The position numbers were made by a program, and so were the translations under genes. Below are positions 1 to 5,858 of a DNA stretch of 5,858 nucleotides, piece after piece. The stretch spans positions 1 to 5,858 of the forward strand of contig CALMYW010000402.1 of assembly GCA_937873665.1 (NCBI GenBank), given 5' to 3'. The stretch's first letter is position 1; each line of letters opens with the position of its first letter. This stretch comes from an uncultured Sphingorhabdus sp. Its GTDB lineage: Bacteria; Pseudomonadota; Alphaproteobacteria; Sphingomonadales; Sphingomonadaceae. The notes beneath the pieces are model-generated. The model was not told the DNA's origin. It ran no database searches and saw only the letters and a list, made by a program, of their open reading frames with translations.

Positions 1-294
1 CTGCAACTTGCCCATCCGCGGGGTGACATGGTTGGTGCGCATCCGCGCTAGCGTGCCTTCGTTGTAGCGATGGAGATAGACCAGCGCCTCGAAAGCCTTC
101 TGCTTGCCAGATGAGAACAGCCAGTAGATTGGACGGTTCTTGTACGTCTGAAGGTGATCCTTGTAGAATTGCTTCGACAGGTACGACCGCAATGCGGCGC
201 GAGGCTCACCGGCGTTGCCCATGGAGAGACCATCCATCAGCGTGGTCAGGGTTTCCATGACCGGTGCGTCTGGCCATGCGATACCGAGGAATGC
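1..294 (-). pseudogene. pglX: C-terminal segment of PglX, cut off by two in-frame TAG codons; runs off the left edge
   Basis: In the same frame as the upstream pglX part, 98 codons are open from 294 to base 1. The translation begins AFLGIAWPDAPVMETL and carries the segment YKDHLQTYKNRPIYWLFSSG, then KQKAFEALVYLHRY and NEGTLARMR. These are hallmark blocks of the conserved PglX C-terminus. No ATG plus ribosome-binding arrangement suggests independent translation; the internal ATGs fall inside a conserved domain. The frame reaches the edge at MGKLQ with no stop, so the real end of pglX lies outside the window. The lack of decay in these 98 codons argues that the interruption upstream is recent, suppressed, or an error. 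It is called a pseudogene fragment because the plain genetic-code reading separates it from its gene; if the ambers are read through or are errors, it is simply the end of pglX. Confidence 0.85.
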
Positions 295-330
295 CTAGCG
301 TGGGGAGGCCGCGCCGTCCGCAACCCACTA
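295..330 (-). other. Two in-frame amber codons, 10 sense codons apart, interrupting pglX
   Basis: On the coding strand the frame reads PTAE-TAG-WVADGAASPR-TAG-AFLG. The first TAG occupies 328-330 and the second 295-297. Sense codons before, between and after are in one phase, and no net insertion or deletion is needed to join the two parts. In recalled PglX relatives this stretch is a T.E.WF.DDAA..F..F type of segment. The T, E, W, D, AA and F positions line up with what is here, with the stops falling on ordinary residue positions. Nonsense substitutions such as CAG or GAG to TAG are therefore a simpler explanation than frameshifts. Readings in the other phase give no PglX-like sequence. Confidence 0.85.
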
Positions 331-3300
331 CTCTGCGGTAGGGGAAAAGAGGCCGTCACCGCCCGCTGCAAACGCGCCGTATCGGAAAGGTCCGAAGCCA
401 CCCCCGCCAGCATGAGCATAGATCAGCCCCGGCTCCACCAGCGAGTAGCGACCCATTACGCAGCCGATGGCGTATGAGATCAGGTCTTTTAGGACCGACT
501 TAATTTCAAATTCGTGCTGGCCAAACTCCGACCAGTTTCTGGGAGTAGGTGCTCTAAGGTCATGGCCTAACTCGTTTGCGATAATATCATTTATCGCATC
601 TTCATAACCGCAGCAAATTTCAAGTTGATCACTTGAGTATTCTTGGAAAACAGCCACGGCTTGGTTAATGGTATTAGAGCGATTTCGCAAAATCGCGTTC
701 ATAGTGAATTCGGGAGAGCACTCCTTCTGACTTTCAATTTCCTTGAACAGATGAGTCAAATGTTGACCTAATCTGGCGACATCCTCCATCCGTTTCTCGG
801 TAATTTTCGGAACAGGGAATTGGGACACTGCTCCTTCTCCAAGGCTGACCTTGGGAGACAAAACAGCAGCTGCTTCCTTGCCTAGATAGGAATTTAGGCA
901 AGCCAAAATATAGTACGTCTGCGAGTTATCTTTCGGAAATATGGTTGACCCACCAGATTCAAAAACCCTTCCAGTTGGCGAAAGACGAAATGAGGGGTTC
1001 CCCATTGTCACAGTCGACCACGTTATTCCCAATTTAAAGAAAAATCCGGTACTTTGAGGTCTAGATTTAACTTTTCCATTTTCGTCTGTGAAGTTTCTTA
1101 TTCGATATCCATCGCTCTCCCAATCCAGAACAAATTGGAGGTTCCCATACCATTTTTGAAAATCCCCACCCTTGTTGCACGGGTACCAAACCTGCGGCTT
1201 CGACTTAGACTCCTGCGCAGAGGAACAATTCCAGATCGTTTTAGCGCTGCTAACCTCGTGCCAAAATCGGAGAAATTTAGCAATATCTCCAGTCTTAATA
1301 CCCTGACGGGCCTGCCCCCAATCATTGAGACTGGGAGAATTCTTGATGAAATCCATAAATTCTGCAGAGGCAGATGCAGAAATTGGTCGGTCCTTAGAAT
1401 TTGAAAAATTCGCGGACCTAGCCTCTGTATCGATAAATGTTTGACGGATTTCTTCAACTTTCTGAACTTTTCCCTTACCTTTCGACAAGTTCTTGATTGA
1501 GGAATTATAATTTTCAGACTGGAAATTACGCAGAGCGTAACAACATGTGCCGTGATCCGACCCCCACACGCCCCTTCCATTATCAACAATTGATAGAATA
1601 AGATAATTACTCATCAAATCGTATCGCATTGCTTGGAAGGTTGGTAGAAACATCCAAGTCCCATTTGAAATTAGGGATGAAATTCCGCCAGATTTGTTAA
1701 AAGTAAGGCATCGCTTTATGAAGCATGAGAACAACTCGCTATCCCAAGCAGGGAATTCTAGCGATGCAAATTTTGAGAGCTTTTCGTTGAAAAATGCAGA
1801 TCCCATGTACGGCGGATTGGCCACCACACAGTCATACTGGCCACCCAACACCTGAGCCAGTGCAACCAGCGGCTTCAACGCTTCTTGGGCATCCGCCTGC
1901 GATTGCCGTCGCAACAGGTCGCCCGTCAGCGGCTTGGCAAGCAGCGCATCCAACGATGGCAAACTGTTCATCACCGCGTCCGTCACGGTAATCAGCGAGC
2001 CGAACGTCTTCGCCCCATCAAACAGCTCGACCAGCGCCTTGATCGCCTTCGCCTCCGCCGATGTCGGTTGCTGGGCCGACAAGGTGGGTTCGGACAAGGT
2101 CTCGGGTAGCAAATCGCCGCTCGGCACCATCTCAAACCGCTCTTGCGGCAACAGCGCCTTCGCCAGCGCATCGGCATCCAGCCCTTCGCTATCCTGCACG
2201 GCAAGCACGTTCAGCTTGGGCGGACTGCGCAGCACGGTGCGATCATCCGCGCAGGCTTTCATCAGCAGAGCAAACCCCGCCATCTGCGCCGCCCGGTCAT
2301 CGATATCGAGGCCAAACAGGTTCTTCGTCAGGATCGCGCGCGCCGCCTCCCGCTTGGTGTAGCCTCGTTCCAGATAGATCGCCCGGAACAGGTCATAAGC
2401 TTCCACCAATATGTGGCCCGACCCAACCGCAGGATCGATCAGGGTGATGGCTTCAGGATCAAGCTGCCTCGGCGTGATCGCATCGATCTGCGCTTGCACT
2501 TCCGGCGTATGCTCAGCCGGGGCGATGTAGTACTCCATGCCCGCACGAATGCCGCTGTCAGGATAGGTCGCCAGCCACTGTGCCCCAAGGCTGTTCTGGA
2601 CCATGTATTTCACGATCCAGTTGGGCGTGAAAAGCTGGGTGGCGGCGGGGATGTCTTCCGACCTCACCACCTTGCCGATCACCTGATCTTTCTTCTCCGA
2701 GATGTAGAACTGGTAGAGCCAGCCAATGATCTCGATTTCCTGCCACTCGGCCTCGGCGATCTCGTTCACCAGCTTGCGCACGATGCTGTCGGATTGCAGC
2801 AGGTTTTCCGGCAGCAGCAGTTCGGTCTCGTCGTCGATCTTCTCGAACAGGAACGGCATCGCGCGGTGCAAATCATTGCACTGGGCGATCAGCAACCTGC
2901 GGTAAATCTGCTCGTCCTTGGTGCCGTCCAGCTTGAGATTGACGATCTCTTCGCGATTGAGGCCTGGAAGATCTATCGATGCGGCCTTCTCCAGCAATTC
3001 AGGCTCATCATGGCCCGCCGGGTGCGACAGGACGCGGCAGCCATGATCGAAATAGTGGTGCAATTCCATATACCGGATGGCGAGAAACCGGTTGAACCAG
3101 GTGTAGGCAACAGCCTCCATCACCTGAGCAAAGCCGTCCCGCGCAATGCGCGCGATCAGCCGCGCGCGCTGGTTCGCAACCGAACGCGGGAACGCCTTGC
3201 CGTTCAGGATGAAAAGATCGCCCTGAACTTCGCCAGCAGCGCTCCCGGCCTTGGTGATGCCGAACTTGGCCGCGCGGTTGGTCATGGCCTGAATGAAATC

Positions 3301-3351
3301 AAGCCGAGCCTGCGGGGCATATTTCTTCAGGACGTTGCGGTTGGAAGCCAT
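328..3351 (-). CDS. pglX: BREX type 1 adenine-specific DNA methyltransferase PglX (BrxX), open frame up to a premature amber stop
   Basis: PglX transfers a methyl group from S-adenosylmethionine to adenine in a short non-palindromic site, marking host DNA. The ATG at 3349-3351 gives MASNRNVLKKYAPQARLDFI, a typical PglX N-terminus. Recognisable parts are QLFTPNWIVKYMVQNSLG (239-256), SAM-binding motif I DPAVGSGH (306-313), an acidic GLDIDD motif (347-352) and catalytic NPPY (512-515). After these come ISNGTWMFL (561-569) and GVWGSDHGTCCYAL (594-607). The target recognition region includes WGQARQGIKTGDIAKFLRFW (678-697), WYPCNKGGDFQKWYG (722-736) and ITWSTVTMGNPSFRL (776-790), and GRYS lies at 967-970. 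Family members usually run to about 1150-1220 residues; this frame stops at 1007 (TAG 328-330). Its true C-terminus continues in the same frame downstream, past a second TAG. All visible catalytic motifs precede the stop, so a truncated product would keep the methyltransferase and recognition regions but lose the conserved C-terminal domain. Composition changes sharply within the gene. Identity is very secure; intactness is doubtful. Confidence 0.95.
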   Translation of the reverse strand: MASNRNVLKKYAPQARLDFIQAMTNRAAKFGITKAGSAAGEVQGDLFILNGKAFPRSVANQRARLIARIARDGFAQVMEAVAYTWFNRFLAIRYMELHHYFDHGCRVLSHPAGHDEPELLEKAASIDLPGLNREEIVNLKLDGTKDEQIYRRLLIAQCNDLHRAMPFLFEKIDDETELLLPENLLQSDSIVRKLVNEIAEAEWQEIEIIGWLYQFYISEKKDQVIGKVVRSEDIPAATQLFTPNWIVKYMVQNSLGAQWLATYPDSGIRAGMEYYIAPAEHTPEVQAQIDAITPRQLDPEAITLIDPAVGSGHILVEAYDLFRAIYLERGYTKREAARAILTKNLFGLDIDDRAAQMAGFALLMKACADDRTVLRSPPKLNVLAVQDSEGLDADALAKALLPQERFEMVPSGDLLPETLSEPTLSAQQPTSAEAKAIKALVELFDGAKTFGSLITVTDAVMNSLPSLDALLAKPLTGDLLRRQSQADAQEALKPLVALAQVLGGQYDCVVANPPYMGSAFFNEKLSKFASLEFPAWDSELFSCFIKRCLTFNKSGGISSLISNGTWMFLPTFQAMRYDLMSNYLILSIVDNGRGVWGSDHGTCCYALRNFQSENYNSSIKNLSKGKGKVQKVEEIRQTFIDTEARSANFSNSKDRPISASASAEFMDFIKNSPSLNDWGQARQGIKTGDIAKFLRFWHEVSSAKTIWNCSSAQESKSKPQVWYPCNKGGDFQKWYGNLQFVLDWESDGYRIRNFTDENGKVKSRPQSTGFFFKLGITWSTVTMGNPSFRLSPTGRVFESGGSTIFPKDNSQTYYILACLNSYLGKEAAAVLSPKVSLGEGAVSQFPVPKITEKRMEDVARLGQHLTHLFKEIESQKECSPEFTMNAILRNRSNTINQAVAVFQEYSSDQLEICCGYEDAINDIIANELGHDLRAPTPRNWSEFGQHEFEIKSVLKDLISYAIGCVMGRYSLVEPGLIYAHAGGGGFGPFRYGAFAAGGDGLFSPTAE
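480..1800 (-). other. AT-rich central module of pglX (end of methyltransferase fold plus target recognition region)
   Basis: Hand counts of G+C per 60-base line are 25 (601-660), 22 (1441-1500) and 25 (1501-1560). Outside the module they are 39 (2041-2100), 39 (2161-2220), 37 (241-300) and 41 (301-360). One edge lies near 1800, immediately after the NPPYMG codons; the other lies near 450-540, around the LISYAIGCVMGRYS segment. The module codes for about residues 518-957, including the region expected to read the DNA target. Codon choice also changes, with many A/T-ending codons inside against mostly G/C-ending codons outside. The frame is uninterrupted throughout, so the module is coding and in register with its flanks. 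The edges are approximate because they were judged by eye. Confidence 0.75.
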
Positions 3352-3365: not shown

Positions 3366-5858
3366 TCAGAGGATTTCGATGCGGGCGTTGCTGGCGATGG
3401 CCTCTTCAAGCTGCTTGCGCAGCGCGGCCAGATATTCGTCAACATCCTCGCGCGTTTCGAGATAGGGCTTGGACGCGGGCAGCCTGGCCGAAATCTGACG
3501 GCGAGGCTTGAAGTTCTCTGGCGCCTTGACCTTGGGGGCGGGCGTGAACGGTGTCGCACCGGGCTGCTTGACGACGGACGGCTCTGGCGAAGGTTGCGGC
3601 GTTGCCTTGGCCTGCTTCGCGGCTTCGACTGCTTTCTCGATATCGGAATGCGCAAGCTCGGCTGCTTCGGCCGCTTCCTCGATCAGGTTGGTGATCTGCC
3701 CAGTGTTGGTTTCAACCTCGATCCGTTTGCGGATATCCTGAATCGGCTTGAGGCATTTGTTCGAAAAGTCAGCATCAACGCCGATGCCAGCCAGATCGGA
3801 CCGCAGCGTTTCAATTTGCGGATCAACCTTGGCCAATGCCTCTGCGCGCCGCTCGGCGATGACGGTTTCGTTTCGCGCCCGCAGGGTCTGGATGAGCGGA
3901 GCACTTTCCTTGATCCGGCCATAAGGGCGCGGATCGTTCAGGATCGAGCGCCCTGTTGCCAATGCTGCCGCCGCGTCAGTATCCCGGTTCAGGAAGAAGG
4001 CGTTGGGCTCAAACTCGTCGCGGAAGGCCGACCGCAGTGCTTCCCATTGCGGCTTCTGCTGCGTGTAGAAGGTTTCCAGGCGCTGGAATCGCTCACCATA
4101 ATCCCCGAGGTCGGCCGCGTGTGCCTTGGCGTGACCGAGGAAGCCGAAACTGTCGCGGTTGGCGAGCAGCTTGTTGAGCATGCCCTGCAGGTCGGCGATT
4201 TCATCCGAACCGGGATAGGCACCCGTCGCTGCCAAGCCCGACCATTGCGCCAGGAGCTGCGATTGCTTGGCAAAGCGATCGCGCAGCCAGTTGTGCAGAT
4301 CATCTTCGCCTTCCGGTGCCGCAGTGCCAAACAGGTCACGCGCCAAGACGCGCACCGACTGGATGTCCGCCTTGTCCACCGTCTTCCGGCGCGACAGGCT
4401 GACCCTGTTCCATTTGGTCGATCCGTCGATTTGCGCGTAAACGTCGCCCGCCTGAAGCTTGCCACCATTCGCGTGCAACTCGATCTGGCCAGCCTTGAAC
4501 AGCCGGCAGACGAGCAGCAACGTATCGAGCTCTTTCCAGCCATAGGGATGCCGCGCGAAACGTTCAGTGATCAAAGACCCGAGATTGACCGACTGACTGC
4601 GTCCGCTGAGCAGCTCGACATATTCCAGCACTTCCTTGAGCGCCCGAGCATTCTGACTGCCGCCAAGCAGATCGAGCTCTTCGCCGCTGGGATCGGCCAG
4701 CACGCGGCGCAATTCGGCCGACTGATCCGACGGCGAATGCTGGATGAAGGAAAGCTTGTTGTAGCTGTTTTCGACGAGGTATCGCAGCGCGGCATCGACT
4801 GCGACCTTGGGTGTGCCGGGAAAGCTCTTTTCGTTGCCCAGCACATAGAATTTCGCTTCCTCAAGCATTTGCGTGAGAGAGGTGCTGATACGATTGCGGC
4901 GTTGTGAGTTTTCCAGGCGCTTGTCGTCATGAATGCGCTTGGTTGTTTGTGGCAGTGAACCATCAGATTTGAGGCGCAGGTAGGCCTCTGTTTTGATGTA
5001 GGCGGTGATTTCGTCTGACAGCTTCTGATCGTCGCGCAACTTGACCACGACCTGCCCAACGGAGCCATCCACACTCAACTCGATGCACCGCGCGTCGTTG
5101 AAGGTGCCAAAGTCTGGCGCCAGAGGGGTCAAGACGGACAGGATCAAGCTGCCCTCTACCCGGTTGCCAAAGGGCGTCAGGTCAATCAACCGGGTGAGAT
5201 CGAAATCCTTCCCGTTGGCGGCATGGCGATAACGGCGATCCCGCAATACGTCTTCGAAGATCACGTCGCCAAGCAGGCGGTTGAGGTCCGCCTGGCTGTA
5301 GTCCTGATCTTTGATCTCCTTGTTGATATCCCGCTCTTCGTTCGTCAGGAAGAAGTAGAGATCGCCATTGCGGCTGATCAACGTTTCGCGCTCGAGCCGA
5401 AGCAGACTCTGCTCGATCTCGGACCTCAGCGCCCGCTTGTCCGCGTCGACCTCGTCCACGAAAAACGTGACCAGATTGTCGATGTTGGCAGGGACTTCCT
5501 CGACATAGCGAATGAGGAACAGGGTCTTCAGAACTCGCGCATCATAGTCGCTGCGGTCTGCAATGTTCTCTACCCGGCCGATCGCCGTGCGGACGACACC
5601 TTCCAGAAAGCTCTCAATTGCGGGGTAAAAGGCATCCAGTGGGACGAGCGCCCCGATGGGCTTGTTCTTGATAGCCTTCGCAGCAGTCTGGAATGCATCC
5701 AGCATTGAGCGCTCACCCTTCGAAAGGTGACCGCCCGTTGCGCCAAATTGGCGACTGGCTTCGAATATCTTCTGGACCAACAGAAATTGATATGGAGCGA
5801 ATGGGTAGCATTCGACGAAGCCATCCGTATCAGCAAAAGAACGCAGCGTGATGCCTGA
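3366..5858 (-). CDS. brxC: BREX system P-loop protein BrxC, C-terminal 830 residues (5' end outside window)
   Basis: BrxC is the large ATPase-family protein of type 1 BREX phage defence, about 1200 residues in full, so roughly the last two thirds is seen. The frame is open to the right edge; the first visible residues are SGITLRSFADTDGF. The nucleotide-binding P-loop should lie beyond the edge and was not seen. Family-like stretches are YPFAPYQFL (residues 18-26 of the fragment) and HLSKGERSMLDAF (44-56), as I recall them from BrxC proteins. Later come a long helical middle, an Ala/Glu-rich helix (about 719-749), a proline-rich linker (about 749-784) and a charged C-terminal helix containing TREDVDEYLAALRKQLEEAI. 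The stop is TGA at 3366-3368. The TTG at 5778-5780 is an internal codon, because matching coding sequence continues upstream of it. No frameshift or internal stop is seen. pglX follows 14 bases downstream on the same strand, so the two are probably co-transcribed. The assignment rests on remembered family sequence plus the adjacent pglX. Confidence 0.92.
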   Translation of the reverse strand, partial: SGITLRSFADTDGFVECYPFAPYQFLLVQKIFEASRQFGATGGHLSKGERSMLDAFQTAAKAIKNKPIGALVPLDAFYPAIESFLEGVVRTAIGRVENIADRSDYDARVLKTLFLIRYVEEVPANIDNLVTFFVDEVDADKRALRSEIEQSLLRLERETLISRNGDLYFFLTNEERDINKEIKDQDYSQADLNRLLGDVIFEDVLRDRRYRHAANGKDFDLTRLIDLTPFGNRVEGSLILSVLTPLAPDFGTFNDARCIELSVDGSVGQVVVKLRDDQKLSDEITAYIKTEAYLRLKSDGSLPQTTKRIHDDKRLENSQRRNRISTSLTQMLEEAKFYVLGNEKSFPGTPKVAVDAALRYLVENSYNKLSFIQHSPSDQSAELRRVLADPSGEELDLLGGSQNARALKEVLEYVELLSGRSQSVNLGSLITERFARHPYGWKELDTLLLVCRLFKAGQIELHANGGKLQAGDVYAQIDGSTKWNRVSLSRRKTVDKADIQSVRVLARDLFGTAAPEGEDDLHNWLRDRFAKQSQLLAQWSGLAATGAYPGSDEIADLQGMLNKLLANRDSFGFLGHAKAHAADLGDYGERFQRLETFYTQQKPQWEALRSAFRDEFEPNAFFLNRDTDAAAALATGRSILNDPRPYGRIKESAPLIQTLRARNETVIAERRAEALAKVDPQIETLRSDLAGIGVDADFSNKCLKPIQDIRKRIEVETNTGQITNLIEEAAEAAELAHSDIEKAVEAAKQAKATPQPSPEPSVVKQPGATPFTPAPKVKAPENFKPRRQISARLPASKPYLETREDVDEYLAALRKQLEEAIASNARIEIL
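3518..3611 (-). other. Proline-rich linker near the BrxC C-terminus
   Basis: This low-complexity segment of BrxC contains PQPSPEPSVVKQPG and then FTPAPKVKAPENF. It separates an Ala/Glu-rich helical stretch (IEEAAEAAELAHSDIEKAVE) from the short conserved C-terminal helix of the protein. It is probably a flexible tether rather than a functional site. The limits are approximate, taken from the amino-acid composition. Confidence 0.6.

Follow-up and report, generated by a model that had tools for sequence, protein, structure and literature searches.

The DNA analyzed here is a stretch of 5,858 nucleotides, referred to as the window, which carries parts of two adjacent BREX genes on the minus strand. 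Base 1 lies within pglX and base 5858 within brxC, and both genes are therefore cut by the window edges. The features needed below are as follows.

3366..5858, minus strand: 3' part of brxC, 830 residues, with its 5' end beyond the window
328..3351, minus strand: pglX for the BREX type 1 methyltransferase, 1007 codons as far as the first TAG
293..411, minus strand: substitution-rich patch containing both TAG codons, delimited by DNA and protein comparison and read as a very likely sequence error
328..330, minus strand: first in-frame TAG, codon 1008
295..297, minus strand: second in-frame TAG, codon 1019
1..292, minus strand: C-terminal continuation of pglX past the patch, which matches the C-terminal part of PglX models and runs off the window

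The brxC product scores 649.9 bits against NF033441 (cut-off 400) and is called BrxC by PADLOC, and the window differs at 0 of the 588 brxC columns that are invariant across four relatives. The pglX frame reaches 962.6 bits against NF033452, the model for BREX-1 PglX (cut-off 500), and contains Eco57I and MmeI methylase domains. NPPY, whose role in the PglX methyltransferase we take from PMC11341690, is present in the translation. The frame sits directly downstream of brxC on the minus strand, and the identification of the gene as a BREX pglX in the first-pass annotation is thus borne out.

Among related loci, a Novosphingobium MAG (L003) has a DNA identity of 95.2% to the window over 4057 bases, which take in brxC and the initial part of pglX, and Novosphingobium sp. 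18050 (L004) has an identity of 90.6%. More distant by DNA are a second Novosphingobium MAG (L002, 77.6%) and Sphingomonas sp. Leaf208 (L001, 75.5%). The pglX of L004 is a single open frame of 1229 codons. Within the window, the pglX stretch from about 487 to 1801 has no DNA match to L003 or L004 and lies between two blocks common to them, with identities of 95% (L003) and 91% (L004) over the first 4057 minus-strand bases and about 84–85% at the C-terminal end. Such a lack of DNA match is as expected for a putatively exchanged target recognition domain. A separate irregularity is seen in L003 at 7001–15371, where pglX, pglZ and brxL each match L004 proteins in two or more frames and the ORFs are broken accordingly. 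This looks like long-read indel error, which would be an artefact of a different kind from that considered below for the window.

The two TAG codons are in the same frame and are followed by 98 open codons that reach base 1, exactly as had been described in the first-pass annotation. The piece past the stops matches positions 1057–1139 of the NF033452 model. With TAG at codons 1008 and 1019, the complete C-terminal region is not contained in one open frame as read, and this probably reflects error. No RNA structure is supported at the stops (z-score of 0.72, with 144 of 200 shuffles folding at least as well).

For the protein-level comparison, homologues were the best 120 of approximately 8,000 in each of two protein searches, giving 138 distinct sequences. 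The closest among the matches listed, P0001, has 1202 residues, carries no stop across the patch or elsewhere and is 95% identical to the 1007 residues of the window. Aligned gap-free over 1117 codons, the two differ at 65 positions, with 21 of these among the 37 residues from 984 to 1020 (bases of approximately 402–292, both stops counted) vs 44 among the 1080 residues elsewhere. With these 44 other differences, P0001 is a relative from a different strain. In a shuffle test that took the maximum over all positions at a block length of 37 residues, 0 of 20,000 shuffles reached 21 differences and the largest count was 12. At 4 of the 21 positions it is P0001 that carries a rare residue (a frequency of at most 5%), and part of the 21 may therefore reflect natural variation or changes specific to P0001. 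The frame had been described as otherwise clean apart from the stops, which the clustering of differences contradicts. The further claim that the C-terminus is well preserved is correct past the patch, with two differences from P0001 in residues 1021–1036 and none in residues 1037–1073, but not for the part leading up to the stops, in which residues 984–1020 are scrambled.

The patch is spanned by 111 of the best 120 listed homologues and by 129 of the 138 in the pooled set. Leaving the stops aside, 13 of the 19 changed residues are absent from the 111 spanning homologues (12 of 19 are absent from the 129), and 4 of these 13 fall at columns with one residue in all 111. Of the 44 differences from P0001 that lie elsewhere in the protein, 5 are unseen among the same 111. 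A leave-one-out control with 121 sequences including the window placed 12 of the window's 15 odd residues, the second stop among them, in one 37-residue stretch. The window ranks second in this control, behind P0113, a PglX piece of 658 residues in which a single 37-residue stretch close to the end, perhaps a frameshifted one, holds 16 odd residues; three other sequences reach 10–11 odd residues, with 25 to 79 in all. A survey of 397 genomes from the family of L003's genome gave eight that match P0001 at 1e-50, with no stop within the listed matches. At a looser limit, one weak P0001 match in L003's genome holds five TGA codons; this match lies within the frame-shifted part of its pglX. Searches for the source sequence gave no exact hit to a 24-base word from the patch in viral_contigs, none in phages, and in plasmids just three partial matches with a coverage of 1–3%.

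At the DNA level, we defined strict sites as bases where L002, L003 and L004 agree, over the C-terminal 486 bases. L001 was excluded from these counts because it aligns with gaps there, leaving three of the four loci, and L003 and L002 were extended gap-free by 19 and 30 bases past their BLAST ends to cover 486–1. In the window, 25 of 86 strict sites are changed within 293–411 vs 14 of 306 in the flanks (Fisher p of approximately 2e-9, a value that is descriptive, as Fisher values are here, given that the limits 293–411 and 984–1020 were picked after seeing the data). Changes in the patch occur at about equal rates at codon positions 1, 2 and 3 (10/32, 11/38 and 4/16 of the available sites), whereas in the flanks the corresponding counts are 2, 2 and 10, that is, 10 of 14 at third positions, as selection leaves them. 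The remaining pglX and brxC look to be under normal purifying selection. All 12 substitution types are present among the 39 majority-rule differences. The low-coordinate edge is abrupt, as no strict change lies between those at 293 and 169, and there are zero differences between L004 and the window from base 292 to 233. Judged by eye, the density of changes appears to climb along the minus strand toward 293. There are no indels in the C-terminal part, which aligns gap-free to L002, L003 and L004, and a pair of frameshifts was rejected on this basis. The patch is dense, codon-blind and gap-free, with an abrupt edge.

Reference A sites in the patch are changed more often (14/22) than other sites (25/94). 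Calls equal to the preceding base number 17 of 39 vs 11.7 expected, a weak excess (p of 0.038, one of six offsets tried), and a phasing-type read error was rejected as an explanation because this signal is weak. Searching within 1–3351 of the window, we found no repeat of at least 14 bases touching 293–411. No close donor for the patch was found in 29 loci or in the rest of the window by a search that detects only close copies and left even the homologous stretches of L003 and L004 unreported. Elsewhere in the C-terminal part, base 17 carries an isolated change seen only in the window, which alters a residue kept by P0001 and a base common to three loci; it is possibly another error near the contig end.

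Based on these sequence comparisons, 293–411 is very likely a substitution-rich error patch from sequencing or assembly in an ordinary BREX operon. Sequence error was the last of three options offered in the first-pass annotation, and it is the one that the evidence favors. Codon-blind, gap-free and mixed substitutions with an abrupt edge, in a region otherwise under normal constraint, make an error patch the best reading. The window is then best seen as part of an unremarkable type 1 BREX operon from a Novosphingobium-like bacterium, probably on a metagenome contig, with substitution errors over approximately 120 bases toward the 3' end of pglX. The simplest source would be the poor-quality tail of a minus-strand read ending at 293 in a region of thin coverage, or else a weakly covered join; a read in this orientation would agree with the apparent climb in density toward 293. 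Two of the miscalled codons would read TAG by chance. In the organism itself pglX is probably uninterrupted, with a product that would act in the usual way as the BREX methyltransferase and specificity protein.

Local, frame-blind and gap-free substitutions with an abrupt edge are what the poor-quality end of a read, or a join with thin coverage, produces. However, errors from single reads are usually dropped by assemblers, which counts against an error patch, and two details, the excess of changes at A sites and the weak phasing signature, do not fit it specially well. The error spectrum is without a platform fingerprint. The stops are present in the record, yet they are most likely no biological feature, and since they lie within an error-like patch they are poor evidence for a switched-off gene or an altered genetic code. 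The original observation is partly confirmed and its interpretation partly supported.

The patch could instead be real, with a mutation burst or a retained non-functional tract having wrecked the conserved C-terminal piece of PglX such that the protein ends at residue 1007. Clustered mutations in BREX genes have a precedent in a Salmonella laboratory strain with a history of nitrosoguanidine treatment, for which PMC9009780 gives four clustered changes in brxC and a mutated pglZ with an early stop, and frequent disruption or phase variation of pglX is described in PMC9122589 and PMC11341690. However, the published brxC cluster has four changes vs 25 strict changes in approximately 120 bases here, and the rest of pglX is without decay. 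A burst caused by a known mutator should favor few substitution types, whereas 12 of 12 are present in the patch. We consider a real mutated tract unlikely. Slightly less likely still is a real strain in which the PglX C-terminal region has been hypermutated and cut at 1007 in a way that could uncouple methylation from phage exclusion. If the allele were real, phage exclusion might be lost, with or without loss of methylation. Mutations in the PglX C-terminus can reportedly inactivate restriction selectively, to judge by the title of Wozniak et al. 2023, which counts for a real allele; together with the loss of the C-terminal region, this means that the kept catalytic motifs would not imply working exclusion. 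Truncation would remove most of the C-terminal region that follows the spacer helices, on a mapping that we infer from PMC11341690, where residues 961–1225 of PglX are described as a conserved C-terminal region of unknown function.

The remaining explanations are far less probable. Two in-frame TAGs followed by a conserved continuation would be seen if an otherwise intact pglX allele had acquired a clean pair of nonsense mutations, but 19 further residues differ within the same 37 (984–1020), so the stops are not the sole change; a clean nonsense allele was rejected on these grounds and is given almost no credence. That both stops are TAG is in line with amber suppression or recoding that yields a full-length PglX, but among the 129 spanning homologues the commonest amino acid differs between the two stop columns. 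A single meaning of TAG therefore does not fit, as the stops do not fall at columns sharing one amino acid. There are also 830 open brxC codons without TAG and no tRNA genes within the window, and recoding appears extremely improbable. Both loss and recoding had been proposed from two ambers in a clean frame, a premise that fails given that 19 other residues are altered alongside the two stops in a dense, codon-blind patch. A naturally split gene, in which proteins of this subgroup stop near residue 1007 and the C-terminal region is encoded by another gene, had been named as the finding that would make the arrangement normal. The conserved piece past the stops would suit it, as would P0091 (1047 residues), which ends just after the patch, though with ordinary residues through it. 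However, in 129 of the 138 best-listed homologues a single protein continues across the patch, and the L004 frame is open for all of its 1229 codons, leaving a split gene with a negligible chance. The nine that do not span are P0060, P0075, P0081, P0082, P0087, P0088, P0091, P0103 and P0113, and ends were inspected for the seven of these other than P0075 and P0088. Apart from P0091, the non-spanning proteins terminate upstream of the patch or have this part missing from the alignment. P0060 ends as is usual for the family, although the portion before this end is absent from the alignment, and the five others inspected have no PglX-like stretch across the patch. Targeted variation, by a diversity-generating retroelement, recombination with a donor or a phase-variation device, would account for dense local changes and for the more frequent change of A sites, although 25 of the 39 differences are away from reference A and many patch columns are conserved in the 111 homologues, so this is no natural variable region. 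The changes are thus neither confined to template adenines nor placed at a site that varies in relatives, the 29 loci hold no close donor, and neither a repeat tract nor inverted repeats were found at the break when repeats of at least 14 bases were screened. The on/off switching of pglX raised in the first-pass annotation is accordingly unsupported in its repeat-based form, and we regard targeted variation as a whole as very improbable.

The locus calls for caution, given that two stops in the frame of a metagenome gene can mimic recoding or phase switching. Comparison with one close relative exposes the garbled stretch, and checking how densely differences cluster near a stop, and at which codon positions, is a rapid way to screen out such false nonsense alleles.

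Compared with known systems, the gene resembles BREX type 1 PglX (BrxX) in its match to NF033452 as far as it can be read, in the brxC directly upstream and in NPPY, and with P0001 as the query it has sequence relatives whose structures are solved (8c45, 8zek and 9ewz). It differs in that the frame, as read, ends 195 residues earlier than the 1202-residue P0001, within a C-terminal region termed conserved in PMC11341690. With phase-variable or disrupted pglX alleles it shares an interrupted pglX next to an open brxC, but the break is a substitution patch and not a change in repeat length or an inversion, and there is no repeat of at least 14 bases at it. It also resembles a low-quality patch in a metagenome contig, with which it would share local, codon-blind and gap-free substitutions and an abrupt edge.
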